From a virus: a stretch of DNA of 64,000 nucleotides. The position numbers and the translations under genes are program-made. Location of the stretch: positions 1 through 64,000 of IMG/VR virus record IMGVR_UViG_3300032116_000102; one strand, 5' to 3'. Positions within the stretch are counted from its first letter, which is position 1; each line of letters starts with the position of its first letter. Below, piece by piece: positions 4,866 through 55,197 of the stretch. The notes beneath the pieces are model-generated. The model worked only from the letters and a program-made list of their open reading frames with translations, did not search any database and was not told the DNA's origin.

Positions 4866-5027
4866 TCAATCTTCTTGTTCTTTACGTTTCTTGTTTTGAT
4901 ACTTACGTGCTTTATCAAGAGCAGCGCGACGTTTTTCTTTGTCGTTCATCTCTGTGCCGTCCTCATTTTTTGCTTCTTTTTTCTTGAAGTGTTCAAGAAG
5001 TTGAGGCGGCATTTTTCCTTTGGCCAT
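4866..5027 (-). CDS. Lysine-rich small protein, 53 aa
   Basis: Starts MAKGKMPPQLLEHFKKKE and ends RKYQNKKRKEQED; strongly basic and probably helical. The same-strand gap between terminase and the 184-aa gene leaves room only for this frame. Small basic proteins with the MPPQLLEHFKKK start occur in phage structural clusters. Function unknown. Confidence 0.55.
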   Translation of the reverse strand: MAKGKMPPQLLEHFKKKEAKNEDGTEMNDKEKRRAALDKARKYQNKKRKEQED

Positions 5028-5058
5028 AACAAATGTTTTTCTTTATTTTAATGTCCGT

Positions 5059-5613
5059 TTATTCTTCTAGTTGCATGCGAGCCCAAACGCTCATGCTTGC
5101 TTCATGCAAAGGAGATTCCACAGGGTCATCTTTAAAGATAAACATTAACTCGCGAATGGCGCGATCAGCTCCAGCCATCAACAAGCCTTTGCGATCTTTG
5201 ACTGAAGTGTACTGTTCAACTTGATTGATTGTGCCGCGCAATTCTTTTTCCATTGCGGCAATACGGGCAACACCTGCATCGCGTTTAACAACACAGTTTT
5301 CAATATCATCTCGAAGCTTGCGGATATCCTCCCGCATTTCTTCAATTTCCATAAGAAGCATTTTCCTATGATCAGGCTTTGGATACTGATTCTTAATCCA
5401 TGCTTCGCACGAAATAATATTGCCTACATAGCCAAGGAAACGAGCATAGAGAAAACATTCAATGAATGAATAGTTCTCACAGGAGAAGGCATGAAAAGAT
5501 TCTTGAACAGCAGAAGACTGCTCAAGAAACCACTCTTCAAAAGCGTTCGTATCAAGCGAGTTAACGCCGTCAGTTTTTTTAGTAGGTGTATGCCGCTTTT
5601 GCTGTACGCTCAT
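5059..5613 (-). CDS. Unknown 184-aa protein, possible terminase small subunit
   Basis: The N-terminal half is Cys/Phe-rich and helical (EEWFLEQSSAVQESFHAF). A coiled coil follows at about 90-140 (EIEEMREDIRKLRDDIENC). Position just upstream of terL and the helix plus coiled-coil layout fit a DNA-recognising TerS oligomer, but no HTH motif is clear. The start overlaps the end of the upstream gene by 35 bases. The TerS assignment is inference only. Confidence 0.6.
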   Translation of the reverse strand: MSVQQKRHTPTKKTDGVNSLDTNAFEEWFLEQSSAVQESFHAFSCENYSFIECFLYARFLGYVGNIISCEAWIKNQYPKPDHRKMLLMEIEEMREDIRKLRDDIENCVVKRDAGVARIAAMEKELRGTINQVEQYTSVKDRKGLLMAGADRAIRELMFIFKDDPVESPLHEASMSVWARMQLEE

Positions 5614-6520
5614 TCCACTGCTTTTGGCGGTACTTGGAAGATTCTAACTCGCCCAAGAGGTTTCTAAAGAGATCAGGGTCAAATGCCCCGGTGTCTTTTA
5701 CTTCAGAGAAAGATTGAAGCCAATTATCAAATTCACTTGGACCGGCAGCCACAGGCTCTTGTGTTGGAGTGGTAACCGCTTCAGGTTCTTGACGTTGACT
5801 TAATTGTGTAGTCAAATCACCAAGTTGTGTTTTAAGGCCACCAATTTCTTCTCCATAACTGGATTTTAGCTCTTCCAGGAGTTTATCTAGTTCTTCTTGG
5901 GTGTAGCCACCAGGAGGATTGCCTCCTGGAGGAGGGTTTTCTCCTGGTGGAGGATTGCCTCCTGGAGGAGGTTGTTGAGCTGCTGCATCACGTGCTGCTG
6001 TTACTGCAGTTTTCTTTTGCTCTTGAAGACTTTCAACACGTCCACCTTTGCCAAGATCTTTTAACTTGCCAAGAATGTCTTTAAATTTACCTGGATCTGC
6101 AATGCCTTCACTAGTCGCGCCCGCGATCATACCCTTGGCTTTTTCAGTCAAGGTCTGAACACGATCTTGTTTCTTATCAGTTTGCTTTGCTGGCGTACCT
6201 GTTTTTTGTTGTGCTACGGGCGTAGGCGTTGGCATAGCCGCCTGATACGTCTTTGCGACCTCGACAGCTTTTTGTCCCTTAGGTTTATCATCTTTCTTGT
6301 CATCTTTTTTGCCTCCACCCCCAGTGTCTTTTTTCTGGGCAGGAGATGGCTCTACAGCGCGGGGAGTTGGTGCCGGGGGAGGTGCAGGCCTTGGAGCGGG
6401 AGCAGGTGCGGGCGCTGGTGCAGGGGCAGACCGTGCTCCGCCACCACCACCTCCACCCCCTCCTCCGGAAGGAGCACCGCCACCGCCGCCACCTTTGTTG
6501 CCGCCGCCACCTTTTGCCAT
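5579..6520 (-). CDS. Low-complexity Gly/Pro/Ala-rich virion protein, 313 aa
   Basis: Residues 4-30 are almost pure glycine, followed by an Ala-Pro repeat (about 32-55), a Lys-rich stretch, and a PPGGNPPPGEN repeat near 185-200. The C-terminal 100 residues are more ordinary (EELDKLLEELKSSYGEEIGG). Probably a disordered structural or scaffold protein. The GC-rich tract creates long false reading frames on the plus strand. Confidence 0.65.
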   Translation of the reverse strand: MAKGGGGNKGGGGGGAPSGGGGGGGGGGARSAPAPAPAPAPAPRPAPPPAPTPRAVEPSPAQKKDTGGGGKKDDKKDDKPKGQKAVEVAKTYQAAMPTPTPVAQQKTGTPAKQTDKKQDRVQTLTEKAKGMIAGATSEGIADPGKFKDILGKLKDLGKGGRVESLQEQKKTAVTAARDAAAQQPPPGGNPPPGENPPPGGNPPGGYTQEELDKLLEELKSSYGEEIGGLKTQLGDLTTQLSQRQEPEAVTTPTQEPVAAGPSEFDNWLQSFSEVKDTGAFDPDLFRNLLGELESSKYRQKQWNERTAKAAYTY

Positions 6521-44736: not shown

Positions 44737-45017
44737 TACTTTGAATCTTTGTATTTCTGCGCAGCAGACTTAGCTTGTTTCCTTTTTTCATACTCATCTT
44801 TCGTCATCCAAGATTCACGGCCCCACTTCTCTAAAGACTTTTGCTTCTCTCCTTTGCCGCCTTTGTATCCGCCACCAGCTTTTTTATACTCCTGAGCTAC
44901 AAGCTGAGCCTTACGCCCGGACCATTGACCTGGTTTCCCTCCACGAGAGCCAGACATTACGCGATCTTTGATGCGTTCGCGCAACTCTGGTTTGGTATAT
45001 TTATTCTCCTGAGACAT
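44736..45017 (-). CDS. DUF5872-like basic protein, 93 aa
   Basis: SGSRGGKPGQWSGRKAQLVA followed by EYKKAGGGYKGGKGEKQKSL and WGRESWMTKDEYEKRK resembles DUF5872, a domain I recall from cyanophages and algal viruses. No known function. Strongly basic. Confidence 0.6.
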   Translation of the reverse strand: MSQENKYTKPELRERIKDRVMSGSRGGKPGQWSGRKAQLVAQEYKKAGGGYKGGKGEKQKSLEKWGRESWMTKDEYEKRKQAKSAAQKYKDSK

Positions 45018-48847: not shown

Positions 48848-48933
48848 TGGATCCAATGGGGGACTAGCTCAACGACGACTGTAATGAGCATAGACAATAA
48901 AATAGTCAAAACGATGAGCTTGAATTCCTGCAT
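48844..48933 (-). CDS. Membrane peptide, 29 aa
   Basis: MQEFKLIVLTILLSMLITVV continues VELVPHWIH. One transmembrane segment; stop and next start overlap. Small size limits confidence. Confidence 0.35.
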   Translation of the reverse strand: MQEFKLIVLTILLSMLITVVVELVPHWIH

Positions 48934-48981
48934 TCTTAGTTTTATATCTGCTACATTGTAACCAATATACAAAACCTGTTA

Positions 48982-49836
48982 ATGGTTGCTAAACTGAATA
49001 CATCAGATCCTTGGATTCAAGCCAAAGAAGAGCAACCGGAAGTAATGCGGTCGATTAATCGGACCGCAGCCAGGATAACACTTAACGGAAAACGTCACTA
49101 CACAACTCCGTTACCCACTGGACCTGCACCGTCCGTAACCACTATCATCAGCGAGACAGCTTCCGAAGCAAACAAACGGAAGCTTGAAATGTGGTCGAAA
49201 GCAAATCCAGGTGTCAAAGAACAAGCAGCCGAGCGGGGCACTGCCATTCACTATGGTATGGAGCAGTACCTCAAAGGGAATAAAACGCCGGAAATCAAAG
49301 ATGAATATGCGGACTTTTGGGCTGGCATGCCGGCGATTCTGGATCAATTCCAGGAAATCCTTTGGGCCGAGTCTCCAGTTCTGGATAAGTTTGACTTTAC
49401 TATTGGTGCTGATGACGTTGCTCGCGTCTGGGGTTGTGACGGAGAAGGACGCGCTTGGGCTGGTGCTCCTGATATTATTGCTGTGGCTAACAATAAGCTG
49501 ACGCTTGCTGACTTAAAAACCAGCGTCAAACCCTATAGCCGCAAGTGGCCTAAAGACCTGGAAAAAGGTTCGCCTGAATGGCGTGATCTCCTCGGGGGTC
49601 ATCTTAAATTCAAAAAGACTTGCAAACAACTCGCTGCGTATGATATAGCTATTACCCAGACATTGGGAATAAAAGTTCAACAAGCAGCAATCCTAGTTTC
49701 TACACCAGTAAGAACTCAGGTTTTTAAAATATCACGCAGGTTCTTAGACTCTTTGCATGAAGATTGGTACAAAATTGTTGAAGAGTATTATGCGCAAATA
49801 GAAAATTGCAATGCGTATGACCCTGATCTAATTTAA
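48982..49836 (+). CDS. PD-(D/E)XK exonuclease (Cas4/RecB-type), 284 aa
   Basis: N-terminal PSVTTIISETASE, an ERGTAIHYGMEQYLKG helix and the core GAPDIIAVANNKLTLADLKT (D, then D-x-K) match phage exonucleases of the Cas4/RecB nuclease superfamily, which process DNA ends in replication and recombination. The final 53 codons (49675-49836) are recoded relative to the surviving old copy at 50282-50443. The gene remains intact. Confidence 0.75.
   Translation: MVAKLNTSDPWIQAKEEQPEVMRSINRTAARITLNGKRHYTTPLPTGPAPSVTTIISETASEANKRKLEMWSKANPGVKEQAAERGTAIHYGMEQYLKGNKTPEIKDEYADFWAGMPAILDQFQEILWAESPVLDKFDFTIGADDVARVWGCDGEGRAWAGAPDIIAVANNKLTLADLKTSVKPYSRKWPKDLEKGSPEWRDLLGGHLKFKKTCKQLAAYDIAITQTLGIKVQQAAILVSTPVRTQVFKISRRFLDSLHEDWYKIVEEYYAQIENCNAYDPDLI
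49675..49836 (+). repeat. Recoded copy of exonuclease 3-prime tail
   Basis: 53 codons plus stop, in frame with the exonuclease. Compared with 50282-50443: 46 of 53 amino acids identical, but 47 of 162 bases differ, mostly at third positions and with AT-rich codons. This copy is the one in use. Confidence 0.9.
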
Positions 49837-49839
49837 AAA

Positions 49840-50334
49840 ATGCAAAACAAAGTCTGTACAATTTGCAAAGAATTAAAAGATTTGTCTTGCTTTAGCAAAG
49901 CGGGCAGAAAAGACGCTTTACGTAGTAATTGTAAAACTTGTGACGCTAAAAAGTATAAAGAATGGAAAAATAAAAATAGAACAAAATATCTACGTAGTTC
50001 TAGTAATTCTGGATTAAAAATACGATATGGAATCGGGCTTGAAGAATATGAAAAACTTTTAGCGCAGCAAAACCATAGCTGTAAAATTTGTGGAACAAAA
50101 AAACCTGGCAGAAAAGATGTTAAAAGATTTGCTGTAGATCATTGCCATAAGACAAACAAAATCAGAGGCTTGCTTTGCATGGCATGCAATACTGCAATAG
50201 GACTGTTAAACGAAGACCCAAAACTTTTTGATGCTGCTCAAAACTATTTGAGAGAGCATCGAGCAGACCCTTGGTATGAAAGTACAACAGGCGGCAATCT
50301 TGGTATCGACGCCTGTTCGTACTCAAGTCTTTAA
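49840..50334 (+). CDS. Recombination endonuclease VII-like homing endonuclease
   Basis: 164 aa. Two CxxC pairs (CTICKELK, CKTCDAKK), then CKICGTKKPG, VDHCHKTNKIRGLLCMACN and a GLLNEDP tail reproduce the endonuclease VII HNH fold. The gene is much more AT-rich than the exonuclease. It starts three bases after the exonuclease stop, and its last 17 codons run in another frame over the old exonuclease tail. A homing enzyme is inferred from the duplicated target (see finding). Confidence 0.8.
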   Translation: MQNKVCTICKELKDLSCFSKAGRKDALRSNCKTCDAKKYKEWKNKNRTKYLRSSSNSGLKIRYGIGLEEYEKLLAQQNHSCKICGTKKPGRKDVKRFAVDHCHKTNKIRGLLCMACNTAIGLLNEDPKLFDAAQNYLREHRADPWYESTTGGNLGIDACSYSSL

Positions 50335-50443
50335 GATCTCCAGGCGATTCCTGGATTCCTTACGGGATGATTGGCTCAAGATCGTTGCCGAGTACTACAC
50401 CCAAATTGAAAATTGTGGTGTTTATGACCCTGATCTCATTTGA
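50282..50443 (+). pseudogene. Old 3-prime tail of exonuclease gene
   Basis: Codes in one open frame for VQQAAILVSTPVRTQVFK and onward to DPDLI plus stop, without a start or any upstream part. Its codons look like those of the rest of the exonuclease gene. It is the displaced original end of that gene. The first 53 bases are overlapped by the endonuclease. Confidence 0.85.
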
Positions 50444-50941
50444 TCACTGGAAGCCGTAGTTCATGTTGCTGCCCAGTCCAATATTTGGAGTGGTGCCGAG
50501 TCCAATATTGGGTTTGGTGCCAAGGGCGGAACCGGTTTGTGCAGCAACCGACTGCGAACGCATCTGGTCCAGCATGTTCATGTAGCTGGACTGAGTACCA
50601 GTGCTGCCGCCAAGCTGAGTTGGTTTCGCTGCGCCACTGGGAGTTGGCTTGGTAGGAGCAGGACGCTTGGGCGCTGCAGTTGCACCGGTCGTTGGACGTG
50701 CTCCTGCTTTACCTTTGTTTTCTACTGCGCGACGCACTGGTTTTTCAGCCGGGCGAGCCGCTGGTTTTGGAGTACGTGCAGTAGGTGCCGCAGCTTGGCG
50801 TGGAGCTGGGGTGCCGGCTTTGGCAGTTGGGCGCTTGGCTTCTTGTTTTTTCGTAGGTGCTGGCATTGCTTTCTTGCCTGCTTTATCAACAGCACCCTTG
50901 ACAGGTTCTTTGCGTGCTGCGCCGGTACGCTTCTCTTTCAT
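50444..50941 (-). CDS. Lys/Ala/Pro-rich histone-H1-like protein, 165 aa
   Basis: About 100 residues of KPA/APKR-type repeats (VKGAVDKAGKKAMPAPTKKQ), then a shorter polar end with repeated PNIGLGTTPNIGLG. Basic low-complexity proteins like this bind DNA nonspecifically; a virion or nucleoid role is a guess. Its stop is adjacent to the old exonuclease tail. Confidence 0.6.
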   Translation of the reverse strand: MKEKRTGAARKEPVKGAVDKAGKKAMPAPTKKQEAKRPTAKAGTPAPRQAAAPTARTPKPAARPAEKPVRRAVENKGKAGARPTTGATAAPKRPAPTKPTPSGAAKPTQLGGSTGTQSSYMNMLDQMRSQSVAAQTGSALGTKPNIGLGTTPNIGLGSNMNYGFQ

Positions 50942-50981
50942 GGTTATAAAACTTATAAACTAATTATATCGAAACAACGTT

Positions 50982-51266
50982 ATGTTCAAACTTCTATTCA
51001 AAGACATCATCGATGCCGTAATCAAATGGTGGAAACGCACCTGGTTTGAAGCCAAAATTAAAGCTAAATTGGATATGATCGAGCTTGAAAACCGTATTGA
51101 ATCCGAATTAGAACGAGAAGAACAAAACAAGCCAATCTACAGAGAGCATCCGATTGATCCTGTACTCCAAGCCGGTGAATCCCAAAAGCTGGGTGGAGCC
51201 ATGCAATTGACAGCGCCTTGGTATAAAGATGAACAGCAACAAGATCAGCAAACTGGAGAGTCGTAA
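50982..51266 (+). CDS. Unknown protein, 94 aa
   Basis: Starts MFKLLFKDIIDAVIKWWKRT; basic amphipathic N-terminus then a charged helix and Gln-rich end. Could bind membranes. Overlaps the next gene by 38 bases. Confidence 0.55.
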   Translation: MFKLLFKDIIDAVIKWWKRTWFEAKIKAKLDMIELENRIESELEREEQNKPIYREHPIDPVLQAGESQKLGGAMQLTAPWYKDEQQQDQQTGES

Positions 51267-51463: not shown

Positions 51464-51952
51464 ATGCATAAACTAACTGATTTTAAGGTCTGTCGCAAAG
51501 GCTTGCATCAATACCCTTTAAACCTAAGGCAATGCCCTGAGTGTAGAAAAATAGCTAAAGAAAAATGGTACAAAAATAATAAAGAACTTTGTAAAACATT
51601 TAGAAAAACTTGGAACGAAAAAAATAAACAACAAAGAAACAAATTAAATCAAAAATGGAAGCAAAATAATAAAAATAAAATAAACGCAATAAATTCTAAA
51701 CGTCGAGCAAACAAAAGAAAGGCTGTCCCTGCTTGGGCTGATTTAAAAGAAATATTTAAAATTTATCAAGAGGCTGTAGAGCTCACCAAAAAAACGGGTG
51801 TTAAGCATGAAGTTGATCACATATATCCGCTTCAAAATAAATATATGTGCGGTTTGCACGTACAAGAGAACTTGCAAATTTTAACAAAGAAAGAAAATCT
51901 TGCAAAAGGTAATCGAACTTGGCCTGGGCAGCTTGATTGCCAAAGAGAATAG
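51464..51952 (+). CDS. HNH homing endonuclease, 162 aa
   Basis: N-terminal CPECRK finger, a very Lys/Asn-rich middle (KRRANKRKAV) and a C-terminal HNH core EVDHIYPLQNKYMCGLHVQE with NLQILTKKENLAKGNR. Much more AT-rich than the neighbouring genes. It is bounded by 15-bp direct repeats, and its TAG stop overlaps the right one. A mobile endonuclease cassette is inferred. Confidence 0.8.
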   Translation: MHKLTDFKVCRKGLHQYPLNLRQCPECRKIAKEKWYKNNKELCKTFRKTWNEKNKQQRNKLNQKWKQNNKNKINAINSKRRANKRKAVPAWADLKEIFKIYQEAVELTKKTGVKHEVDHIYPLQNKYMCGLHVQENLQILTKKENLAKGNRTWPGQLDCQRE

Positions 51953-52037: not shown

Positions 52038-52226
52038 ATGAGCACCTACGTCATTGGCGTAGGCGAATGGATGCAGACCCTCTCAAGCCGCATGGAAACT
52101 GCGGTTGATGGGGATCTCTTTGTCCTTCCGTCTGCAATGCACCTTCACGCATACAACATATTGAAAGAAAGCCTTTTTTCAACTCAAGACTTTAAAGTAG
52201 AAGTTCGAATCGACAACCAGGCATGA
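52038..52226 (+). CDS. Unknown protein, 62 aa
   Basis: Starts MSTYVIGVGEWMQTLSSRME; mixed alpha/beta. Overlaps the primase-helicase gene by ATGA. Unrecognised. Confidence 0.55.
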   Translation: MSTYVIGVGEWMQTLSSRMETAVDGDLFVLPSAMHLHAYNILKESLFSTQDFKVEVRIDNQA

Positions 52227-54850
52227 CCAATACCAACCAGCAAGCCCTCAAGCCTGGCGAAATTAAGCTTGATTACATCCCGGTTGACTGGCCCTTGACT
52301 CCCTTGGGTCCAAATAAAGATCCGTATATTGCAGGCTGGCAAAACAAACCACTTAGCCCAAAAGAAATAGAAGATGAGATTCTGAGCGGACGTTGCAAGG
52401 CAATTGGTCTGCTCGGTGGTCCCGTCTACAACCATCCCTACGGTTTTGTCTGGGTTGATGTTGACGGCCCTACCGTCTATCAACTCATCGAAGATCTCTC
52501 GGAACTTCCGTTTGAGCAGGCACTCCCCCCAACACTGACAATCCTCAGTGGAAAAGAGGGGCGTGAGCGTAAATTATACAAATTGTCACGAGATCAACAC
52601 AAACAATTCGTACGAAATAAGTACACCTGGCACTCGGAGGGGCCAAAAGAAAAACTTGAGATCCTCTGGAAGCGGCACCAGGGTGTTCTCATGGGTCTGC
52701 ACCCTGAAACCGAAGGGTATTTCACCGCTCCAGATCAAGGGTTTGAGTGGATCCAGCAGTTGCCTGAGTTTCCGGACTGGCTACTGAATGCCATCGTCCA
52801 GAAAAATGTCAAGCAGGGTGTTCCCGCCAAGGAAACGACACGCATCATCGGTCCTTCCTTTGCCATTAATGCTGAGATTTCCCTTGAGCGGGACATGCAG
52901 CTGGCCTTGGAAGCAATGTGGGGCATGCCACCAGAAGCAACTGATGATTACGACATCTGGATCACGGTTGGTCAGTCGCTTCATTCATTGGATGAATCAC
53001 TGCTCGATCACTGGGATGAATGGTCCCGGCAATCGGATAAATATCAGGATGGTGAATGCCAACGGCGTTGGCTTTCCTTCTCAAAAGGTGGCGGTCGGGG
53101 TGTTGGATCTTTGGTGCACGTCGCCAAGGAGAACGGATGGAAGCCGTCTGAAAATCACAAGGCAATGAATGTGGACGATTCAATGCTTGATCATGTGTCC
53201 AAACTGTTAAACGAATTAGAAAAAGATTTGGGTATGACAAATACTGCAACCGTTCCCGAAGTAGACAGTGCACCCGTTAATCGGTGGGCTGCAACAAGTG
53301 CATACAAAGAAAAAGAAGGGAAAAAACAAAAGACTCGCAATCCATCGTCTGATGTCATTGCTGGAATCCTGCTTCAGGATTACAAAGGGAACCTGCGCTA
53401 CAGCCAAGCTCATGACGCATTCTTCATGTATGAGTACCAGCGGAAGGGTCTTTGGTCTCAGCTGTCTGACTATGAGGTGAAGGGTGACATCAAAGGTCGG
53501 TTGGATGCCATCAAAGAAGGTCTTCTGCACAGCGGCTACTCCATGAATCTGATCTCTGATTTGATGGAGCAATTGAGGATTTCAACTATTTTTGATGATT
53601 GGTATGAAAGCAATGATTATCTGCTCTTTACCAACGGAATCCTGAAAGTTGATACGCGAGAGTTGCTTCCTTTTGACAGGGAAATGCACATCACGCAACA
53701 GCTGCCTTACGAATACGATCCCTACGCCACATGTGAACCCATCATTAAATGGCTCAAGAGTACACAACATGACAGCTGGGGTCGGGTCCAGGTGCTGCGG
53801 GCTTGGTTGCGGGCAGTGCTGTTAAGTCACTCCGACATTCAAAAGTTTGTTGAGATTGTTGGTCCAGGTAAATCAGGGAAGTCCACCTACAGCAACCTTG
53901 CTCACGCACTGGTCGGTGATGACAACGCAATGATCTCCTCGCTAGAGCACCTGGAAAAGAACAGATTTGAAACATCAAACCTCTATAAGAAAAAGCTTCT
54001 GCTCTTTAATGATGTGGAGCGTTATGGCGGCTCGGTTTCAGTCCTTAAAGCGATCACCGGTCGTGACCTGATTCGTAATGAGCGTAAGTTCCAGGCCGGC
54101 AGCCAGAAACCATTCAAGTTCAATGGTCTGGTCATGATCACCGCCAACGAACCAATCCAAACAACTGACCCAACATCTGGTTTAGCGCGTCGTCGCCTCA
54201 CCATTCCTTTTGACAAACCATTCACTGGTAGTTCTGCTGAGCAGCGCACGTTGATTGATATGGATGATCGTGGTCATCCCTTCGGTGAATTTGCTGCTTT
54301 GCTGCCAGGTCTTGTCAACTGGGTCTTGGATATGACTGAGGCAGAGATGCGGGAATACTTGATGGAGACCAATGACAAAGTTGACTTCTTCGCCAAGCAT
54401 CACCGTGAACAGATCCTTAAATCCAACCAGATCCTTGATTGGATGCAGCATTGTGTTGTGTTTGATCCAGGTATTGCCACTCCTGTGGGCCTTGCAAAAC
54501 ACGCGCCAGGTGGTGTCTCCAACCTGTACATCAACTGGGACAAGTGGTTGTATGCCAGCTACTGCGAATTCTCACGTGGTTCAAACAGCAACATCCTTGG
54601 TCGCAGCCGGTTTGAATCCCTCTTGATGGACGTATGTGTGCATCAGCTCAAGCTGAATGTCTATCAATTTAAGAACAGTCGTGGCATGCGGGTTGTCAAC
54701 ATCGCATTGCGAGCATCCGGCCCTAAGTACGAGCAATATCCTTCCCTTGTGGAAGTGGGTCTGAACAAGGAAGAGTGGCGTGCGTTCTATGGGGACATCA
54801 TTGACAAAGCATCTAATGCGACAATGGAAGAGGCTGCTGAAGAACTGTGA
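52223..54850 (+). CDS. Primase-SF3 helicase replication protein, 875 aa
   Basis: N-terminal primase-polymerase-like region with GFVWVDVDGP (about 77-86). C-terminal D5/SF3 helicase: Walker A GPGKSGKST (about 547-555), Walker B LLLFNDVE (about 592-599), VMITANEP sensor and LARRRLTIPF arginine region. It unwinds and primes the replication fork. Single long gene, as in many phages with D5-type proteins. The next gene starts by GTGA overlap. Confidence 0.85.
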   Translation: MTNTNQQALKPGEIKLDYIPVDWPLTPLGPNKDPYIAGWQNKPLSPKEIEDEILSGRCKAIGLLGGPVYNHPYGFVWVDVDGPTVYQLIEDLSELPFEQALPPTLTILSGKEGRERKLYKLSRDQHKQFVRNKYTWHSEGPKEKLEILWKRHQGVLMGLHPETEGYFTAPDQGFEWIQQLPEFPDWLLNAIVQKNVKQGVPAKETTRIIGPSFAINAEISLERDMQLALEAMWGMPPEATDDYDIWITVGQSLHSLDESLLDHWDEWSRQSDKYQDGECQRRWLSFSKGGGRGVGSLVHVAKENGWKPSENHKAMNVDDSMLDHVSKLLNELEKDLGMTNTATVPEVDSAPVNRWAATSAYKEKEGKKQKTRNPSSDVIAGILLQDYKGNLRYSQAHDAFFMYEYQRKGLWSQLSDYEVKGDIKGRLDAIKEGLLHSGYSMNLISDLMEQLRISTIFDDWYESNDYLLFTNGILKVDTRELLPFDREMHITQQLPYEYDPYATCEPIIKWLKSTQHDSWGRVQVLRAWLRAVLLSHSDIQKFVEIVGPGKSGKSTYSNLAHALVGDDNAMISSLEHLEKNRFETSNLYKKKLLLFNDVERYGGSVSVLKAITGRDLIRNERKFQAGSQKPFKFNGLVMITANEPIQTTDPTSGLARRRLTIPFDKPFTGSSAEQRTLIDMDDRGHPFGEFAALLPGLVNWVLDMTEAEMREYLMETNDKVDFFAKHHREQILKSNQILDWMQHCVVFDPGIATPVGLAKHAPGGVSNLYINWDKWLYASYCEFSRGSNSNILGRSRFESLLMDVCVHQLKLNVYQFKNSRGMRVVNIALRASGPKYEQYPSLVEVGLNKEEWRAFYGDIIDKASNATMEEAAEEL

Positions 54851-55197
54851 GCAATGGGCGTCACCTGATCCTCGATCTCTACGATTGCGATAAGGATCTA
54901 CTGGATAATTACGAAGAGCTAGAGCGGTTGCTCCAGGTGGCGCTCAACATGGCGGGTGCAAAGATTCTGCGGGTCTTTGGTGAGAAGTTTCAGCCGCAAG
55001 GCGTGACACTCTTGGCATTACTGGCGGAATCACATGCATCCATCCACACATGGCCCTGTGAAGGTTATTGTGCCATTGACCTTTATACCTGTGGTGATAC
55101 AACCCATACCCATCGGGCTGCCGAATTCTTGAAGACGAAACTAAAAGCGAAGCAATCAGAGGAAAAAGAACTAGTGCGGTCTATAACTCCTCAATAA
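54847..55197 (+). CDS. speD: S-adenosylmethionine decarboxylase
   Basis: 116 aa with GTG start overlapping the previous stop. Makes decarboxylated SAM for spermidine. The processing site LAESHASIHTWP (residues 59-70; cleavage before the first Ser) yields the pyruvoyl enzyme, followed by EGYCAIDLYTCG (72-83). Length is normal for the bacterial short form. speD is a known auxiliary metabolic gene of cyanophages. Confidence 0.92.
   Translation: MSNGRHLILDLYDCDKDLLDNYEELERLLQVALNMAGAKILRVFGEKFQPQGVTLLALLAESHASIHTWPCEGYCAIDLYTCGDTTHTHRAAEFLKTKLKAKQSEEKELVRSITPQ

Follow-up and report, generated by a model that had tools for sequence, protein, structure and literature searches.

A probable intronless homing cassette carrying a diverged copy of its target gene's end, and related layouts in phage genes

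Why should a gene end twice, with a nuclease gene lying between its two ends? This question is raised by the window, a stretch of 64 kb out of an 85.6-kb virus record, which is related to the Synechococcus phage S-EIV1. The gene concerned (48982–49836, plus strand) codes for a hybrid exonuclease of 284 amino acids and of the PD-(D/E)XK type, as indicated by its match to phrog_298 exonuclease (E = 6e-30), by 64% amino acid identity with the S-EIV1 exonuclease, which is complete and uninterrupted, and by its motifs: PD..DLK at residues 163–179 and QxxxY, in the form QLAAY, at residues 216–220. Q and Y of the latter motif were kept in all of the 119 loci over which motif conservation was followed.

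Codons 224–284 plus the stop were present twice on the plus strand, as the tail in use (49651–49836) and, behind the nuclease gene, as a relic with intact frame (50258–50443). The match between the tail and the downstream flank was far above chance (E = 7e-35). An earlier reading of the same DNA, made without database searches (the sequence-only reading), had described tails of 53 codons with 46 of 53 residues the same and 47 of 162 bases different; the duplicate and these counts were confirmed, but the true length was 61 codons plus stop, with 52 of 61 amino acids and 130 of 186 nucleotides identical. The differences were mainly silent, as that reading had held (pS 0.96, pN 0.13). GC content was 0.486 in the gene body, 0.349 in the tail in use, 0.337 in the endonuclease gene and 0.457 in the relic, in agreement with the claim that the copy in use is AT-rich like the endonuclease. 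The second copy had also been called startless; an in-frame ATG does occur at 50276 and opens an ORF of 55 amino acids, although this codon corresponds to the internal Met230 of most relatives.

The gene between the two tails is an Endonuclease VII-type HNH ORF (49840–50334, plus strand; PF02945, E = 2e-22; phrog_2633, E = 4e-37), which matched T4 Endo VII and Hpy99I by sequence at E about 1e-3. Its description as an endonuclease VII-like gene following the exonuclease gene holds, except that the ORF is native only to about 50257 (about 49840–50257, 139 amino acids). Its last 25 residues or so (overlap 50258–50334, plus strand) come from out-of-frame reading of the relic, into which the ORF continues since the junction has cost it its own stop; in L084 and L026 the related nucleases are ended by a stop of their own near the equivalent of about 50257. 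The catalytic core (50137–50190, plus strand) consists of D100-H101, R109 and C-x2-CN (N117), so that DH, R and C-x2-CN, the catalytic and zinc residues conserved in Endonuclease VII-motif homing endonucleases, are present, with the same spacing as D101, H102, R110 and N118, which are necessary in F-CphI of cyanophage S-PM2 (PMC6083498). No Rfam match that could point to a group I intron was obtained in 48900–51000, and the exonuclease ORF ends before the nuclease starts, leaving no sign of an intein around the nuclease. A role as resident Holliday-junction resolvase, such as that of T4 gp49, was rejected, the gene being absent in 108 of the 119 loci (at this site only). A close-relative scan of bacterial and archaeal genomes yielded no confirmed relative of the nuclease. 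The window also holds a second AT-rich HNH-like ORF (51464–51952; phrog_26577, phrog_1035), which is optional in relatives (e.g., L022, L037, and L217) and had no duplicated flank in the flank-duplication test described below; at 52223–55197 a primase-type gene precedes an S-adenosylmethionine decarboxylase gene, an order shared with S-EIV1.

With the window counted in, two scans recovered 119 distinct exonuclease loci. The search for exonuclease genes without the cassette, which the sequence-only reading had proposed, found such empty sites in 108 of them, with neither of the two nuclease types distinguished below (A and B) behind the gene. The best match of the relic was nuclease-free L016 (89% over 183 nt), followed by L004 and L005, as compared with 70% to the tail in use. 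The gene body clustered with nuclease-free L005 and L004 (support 96/98), and the tail in use with L008 (99/93, no nuclease) and L018 (99/88, nuclease-bearing). Identity to the nearest nuclease-free relatives fell from about 0.94 before codon 160 to 0.88 in codons 217–224 and to 0.57–0.76 in the tail, and composition and identity shifted at the same codon at which the relic starts. The identity drop, the grouping with L008 and L018 and the low GC content point to the tail in use as the foreign one, and the relic, nearer to nuclease-free gene ends than the tail in use, as the native one. In AU tests on the 183 tail columns the alternatives were not rejected at 0.05 (p = 0.059, 0.12, and 0.145), and it is support values, identity and position, not the AU test, that suggest the grouping of the tail. 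The left boundary of the inserted block lies between codons 223 and 224 (49650/49651, to within a few nucleotides), four codons past QxxxY. Since the left and right borders fall on one codon, a block composed of foreign tail and nuclease appears to have gone into a single codon position just past this motif. The proposal that a cassette entered the gene end with its own tail is in this way borne out by the empty sites, by the relic matching them and by the separate grouping of gene body and tails.

Another part of that proposal, namely that the tail in use had been recoded, was not sustained, given its grouping with the natural allele L008. The exonuclease gene of L008 (positions 5001–5852 of that locus) ends in a tail resembling the one in use in the window, with neither nuclease nor relic; tail and nuclease are therefore separable. 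L008 could be a cured allele, an immune one, or a donor lineage predating the nuclease. Because a like tail occurs there without nuclease, "recoded" should give way to "diverged allele", and the tail in use is better read as a homologous allele carried along with the nuclease. Its E225T and M230I changes were found in other natural alleles too.

In 11 of the 119 distinct loci the exonuclease gene was immediately followed by an optional nuclease gene. Type A comprised the window, L084 and L026 (= L029), and type B comprised L015, L018 (= L020), L027, L070, L103, L183, L211, and L247, the nucleases of the two types being about 36% identical. With kin loci taken as independent in these counts and p values, tails of nuclease-bearing loci stood further apart from their closest nuclease-free kin (median drop 0.166 vs. 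0.078; p = 0.0015) and had lower GC3 (p = 0.0004), and Lys264, adjoining the type-B insertion point, was lost in seven of the eight type-B vs. 21 of the 108 nuclease-free loci (p = 2e-4); the type-A association test at codons 225 and 230 comprised only three loci (p = 0.022 and 0.013, respectively). A relic was absent in 8 of the 11, including L084 and L026, which carry the closest relatives of the window nuclease. Within type B, a relic of 21–22 codons was present in L018 = L020 (two samples) and in L027, and the insertion point was near codon 262, 39 codons beyond that of the window in the same gene. Codons 222–262 of L027 matched nuclease-free L016 (0.89), and the best matches of its last 22 codons were other type-B loci (0.83, 0.80, and 0.80). 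Judging from these comparisons, type B displays the layout independently of the window.

Other phage genes were covered by a flank-duplication test, asking whether the reading frame that precedes an HNH gene is repeated just downstream of it, at 145 distinct testable sites that were picked by similarity and for which no frequency is claimed. A tail case was found in L346 (KWGRLGECDDYFW..), where the gene is intact in many relatives without nuclease, and L337 is probably a further one. Mirror-image cases, at gene heads, occurred in the large terminase gene, in a small ORF and in a tail-region gene. In 12 large-terminase loci an old head of 16 codons was followed by the nuclease and by a diverged in-use head keeping 14–15 of the 16 residues, and the old head was nearer than the in-use head to the closest nuclease-free terminase in all nine loci compared. 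The HNH cassette of the large-terminase genes of L261–L273 follows codon 16, and the ATG of the in-use head is placed at the nuclease gene's end. In L162 (2923–3420; also in L160) the old head of the tail-region gene (MSEQLQIASISAPGFFGLKS) now serves as N-terminus to the HNH ORF, and a diverged head opens the gene downstream of it. Among Endonuclease VII genes of T7-like and other phages (L250–L260) this test provided no convincing case, and therefore does not fire everywhere. The flank duplication of L257 was a false positive due to psbA/psbD paralogues, and that of L335 was put aside as probably due to chance. The layout is not a one-off, and it has a mirror form at gene starts.

The small ORF (KYTKPELRERIKDRV..) had the head layout in about 25 loci; the window's own copy (44739–45017) is uninterrupted. 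Within the main subgroup (15 loci), the in-use head varied together with its nuclease (rho 0.62, p = 0.001), as did the relic with the remainder of the gene (rho 0.36, p = 0.004), and no covariation appeared between in-use head and remainder (rho -0.05, p = 0.65). Such covariation is characteristic of a mobile unit that consists of a nuclease and a gene piece. Small-ORF copies adjoining an Endonuclease VII-type HNH gene also carry an insert of 23–29 nt directly after TGG TCG (L341–L374 and L376, and also L004, L006, L013, L026, L027, L029, L070, L191, L192, L219, L230, and L234), and copies at nuclease-free loci are without it. The insert contains a TAG stop and a hairpin of the form UAGCC-GNRA-GGCUA, broken in L364, with the loops GUAA, GUGA, GCAA, or GGGA. 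Nearly all inserts also hold a second TCG, beyond which the frame goes on for 48–62 conserved residues. As the insert lengths (23, 24, 27, 28, and 29 nt) fall in all three frames, the obvious reading is that ribosomes would hop from TCG to TCG, in a putative bypass like that of T4 gene 60.

We consider it probable that the window carries an intronless homing cassette, in which an Endonuclease VII-type homing nuclease is linked to a diverged version of the target gene's end. During mixed infection the nuclease would cut a resident exonuclease gene near codon 224, past QxxxY, and repair of the break would copy the donor from the upstream homology through donor tail and nuclease. The resident tail, forming the right-hand end of the break, would be rejoined behind the nuclease and become the relic, which is the arrangement observed. 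As the 61 residues encoded by the donor tail are almost those of the old one, the exonuclease gene stays intact. The changed spelling would be expected to make the new allele uncuttable: relic and tail in use are unlike at 56 of 186 positions, the surroundings of the insertion point among them (the relic reads ATCGAGCAGACCCTTGGTATG there, the tail in use ATTACCCAGACATTGGGAATA), and this likely protects the tail in use. The relic could then supply the right-hand homology for a next round of homing. In the eight loci without relic, the tail may have been exchanged leaving no old one, or the relic may have been lost later. An insertion four codons past the conserved QxxxY is as expected of an element that would target sequence its hosts cannot easily change.

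The anatomy might also have arisen as a one-off mosaic, ordinary recombination having imported a foreign tail and a nearby nuclease that does not cut the gene, with an accidental relic. The L008-like tail without nuclease, the generally mosaic look of exonuclease tails and a window junction that is unique in the collection are in line with this. It is, however, difficult to reconcile with the recurrence of the layout in this gene, where another nuclease forms it at another codon, and at the ends and starts of other genes, with the in-use piece of the small ORF covarying with its nuclease, or with the Lys264 association in type B, and we regard it as rather unlikely. Were the tail duplicated inside the genome and then recoded in place under selection to evade the nuclease, mainly silent differences would be seen, as they are; homologous alleles show mainly silent divergence anyway, and the clustering of the tail in use with alleles of other phages (L008 and L018) and the natural occurrence of E225T and M230I make this course very unlikely.

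A pattern scan of IMG/VR for the exact junction of the window gave no second copy, the junction occurring in this one metagenomic contig only, as would be the case for an assembly chimera from two co-occurring phages; an artifact of this kind is extremely unlikely in view of the equivalent layouts from several samples (L018 and L020, L027, the 12 terminase loci and about 25 small-ORF loci). Almost no credence is given to the second tail being a functional small gene of 55 amino acids starting at 50276: its frame is open and complete to the stop, but the parent gene has an internal Met at this start, Pfam and PHROG gave no match, part of it lies within the nuclease ORF and it is missing in 8 of the 11 nuclease-bearing loci.

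If the locus is an intronless homing cassette, it shows a nuclease gene entering a coding sequence that remains unbroken, without intron or intein, by supplying the missing piece itself. This would account for patchy AT-rich gene ends and starts, for short orphan gene fragments next to HNH genes and for mosaicism of phage gene ends, and it would link phage homing to a layout hitherto described in fungal mitochondria; relic and in-use copy form a natural matched pair for the evolution of cut sites. Extending the sequence comparisons to the other genes, we lean toward the view that such homing cassettes form a general class in phages, replacing the start or end of a target gene with a diverged, presumably cut-resistant piece plus an Endonuclease VII-type nuclease, the piece of one family holding a putative programmed ribosome-hopping element at the insertion site.

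SegF and SegG of T4 belong to the GIY-YIG family, unlike the window nuclease. Their intronless homing is similar in the free-standing nuclease, in the cut made in a neighboring conserved gene and in the co-conversion of flanks, the latter being standard in T4 intronless homing; duplicated gene ends are not mentioned in the review of that process (PMC2988022). In the literature covered, including PMC2988022, PMC10448857, and PMC12724721, phage homing nucleases were nowhere described as replacing the end or start of a gene; subscription literature was mostly outside this coverage, which makes the result a lead and not a proof. With the T4 homing nuclease and the bypass insert of gene 60, the likeness is that a nuclease splits the gene and that added sequence may protect the donor, whereas the protecting sequence there is a non-coding insert of 50 nt and not a replacement gene end (PMC5009743); the small-ORF family of the related loci has both, an insert like that of gene 60 and a replacement gene piece.

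The closest enzyme is F-CphI, likewise a free-standing Endonuclease VII-motif nuclease of a cyanophage located by its target gene, and it takes part in collaborative homing, in which a change in the target protects the donor allele; a counterpart is proposed for the window, except that in S-PM2 protection comes from a group I intron in psbA, whereas in the window, without intron, the changed gene end would protect (PMC6083498). The closest known layout is that of mobile ORFs in fungal mitochondria (Allomyces macrogynus atp6; atp6, atp9, cox2, and nad3 of Glomus sp.), and the comparison with them made by the sequence-only reading was apt (PMC3630166). As in the window, a foreign carboxy-terminal piece is joined in phase, the endonuclease ORF is next and the native C-terminus lies downstream, with 91–98% identity to ORF-less relatives vs. 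64–81% for the inserted piece (PMC3630166); the window relic is in the same manner nearer to nuclease-free relatives. The fungal elements encode LAGLIDADG or GIY-YIG nucleases and reside in mitochondria, whereas the nucleases described here are of the Endonuclease VII-type HNH kind, occur in a virus and in phages, and are found at gene starts as well.
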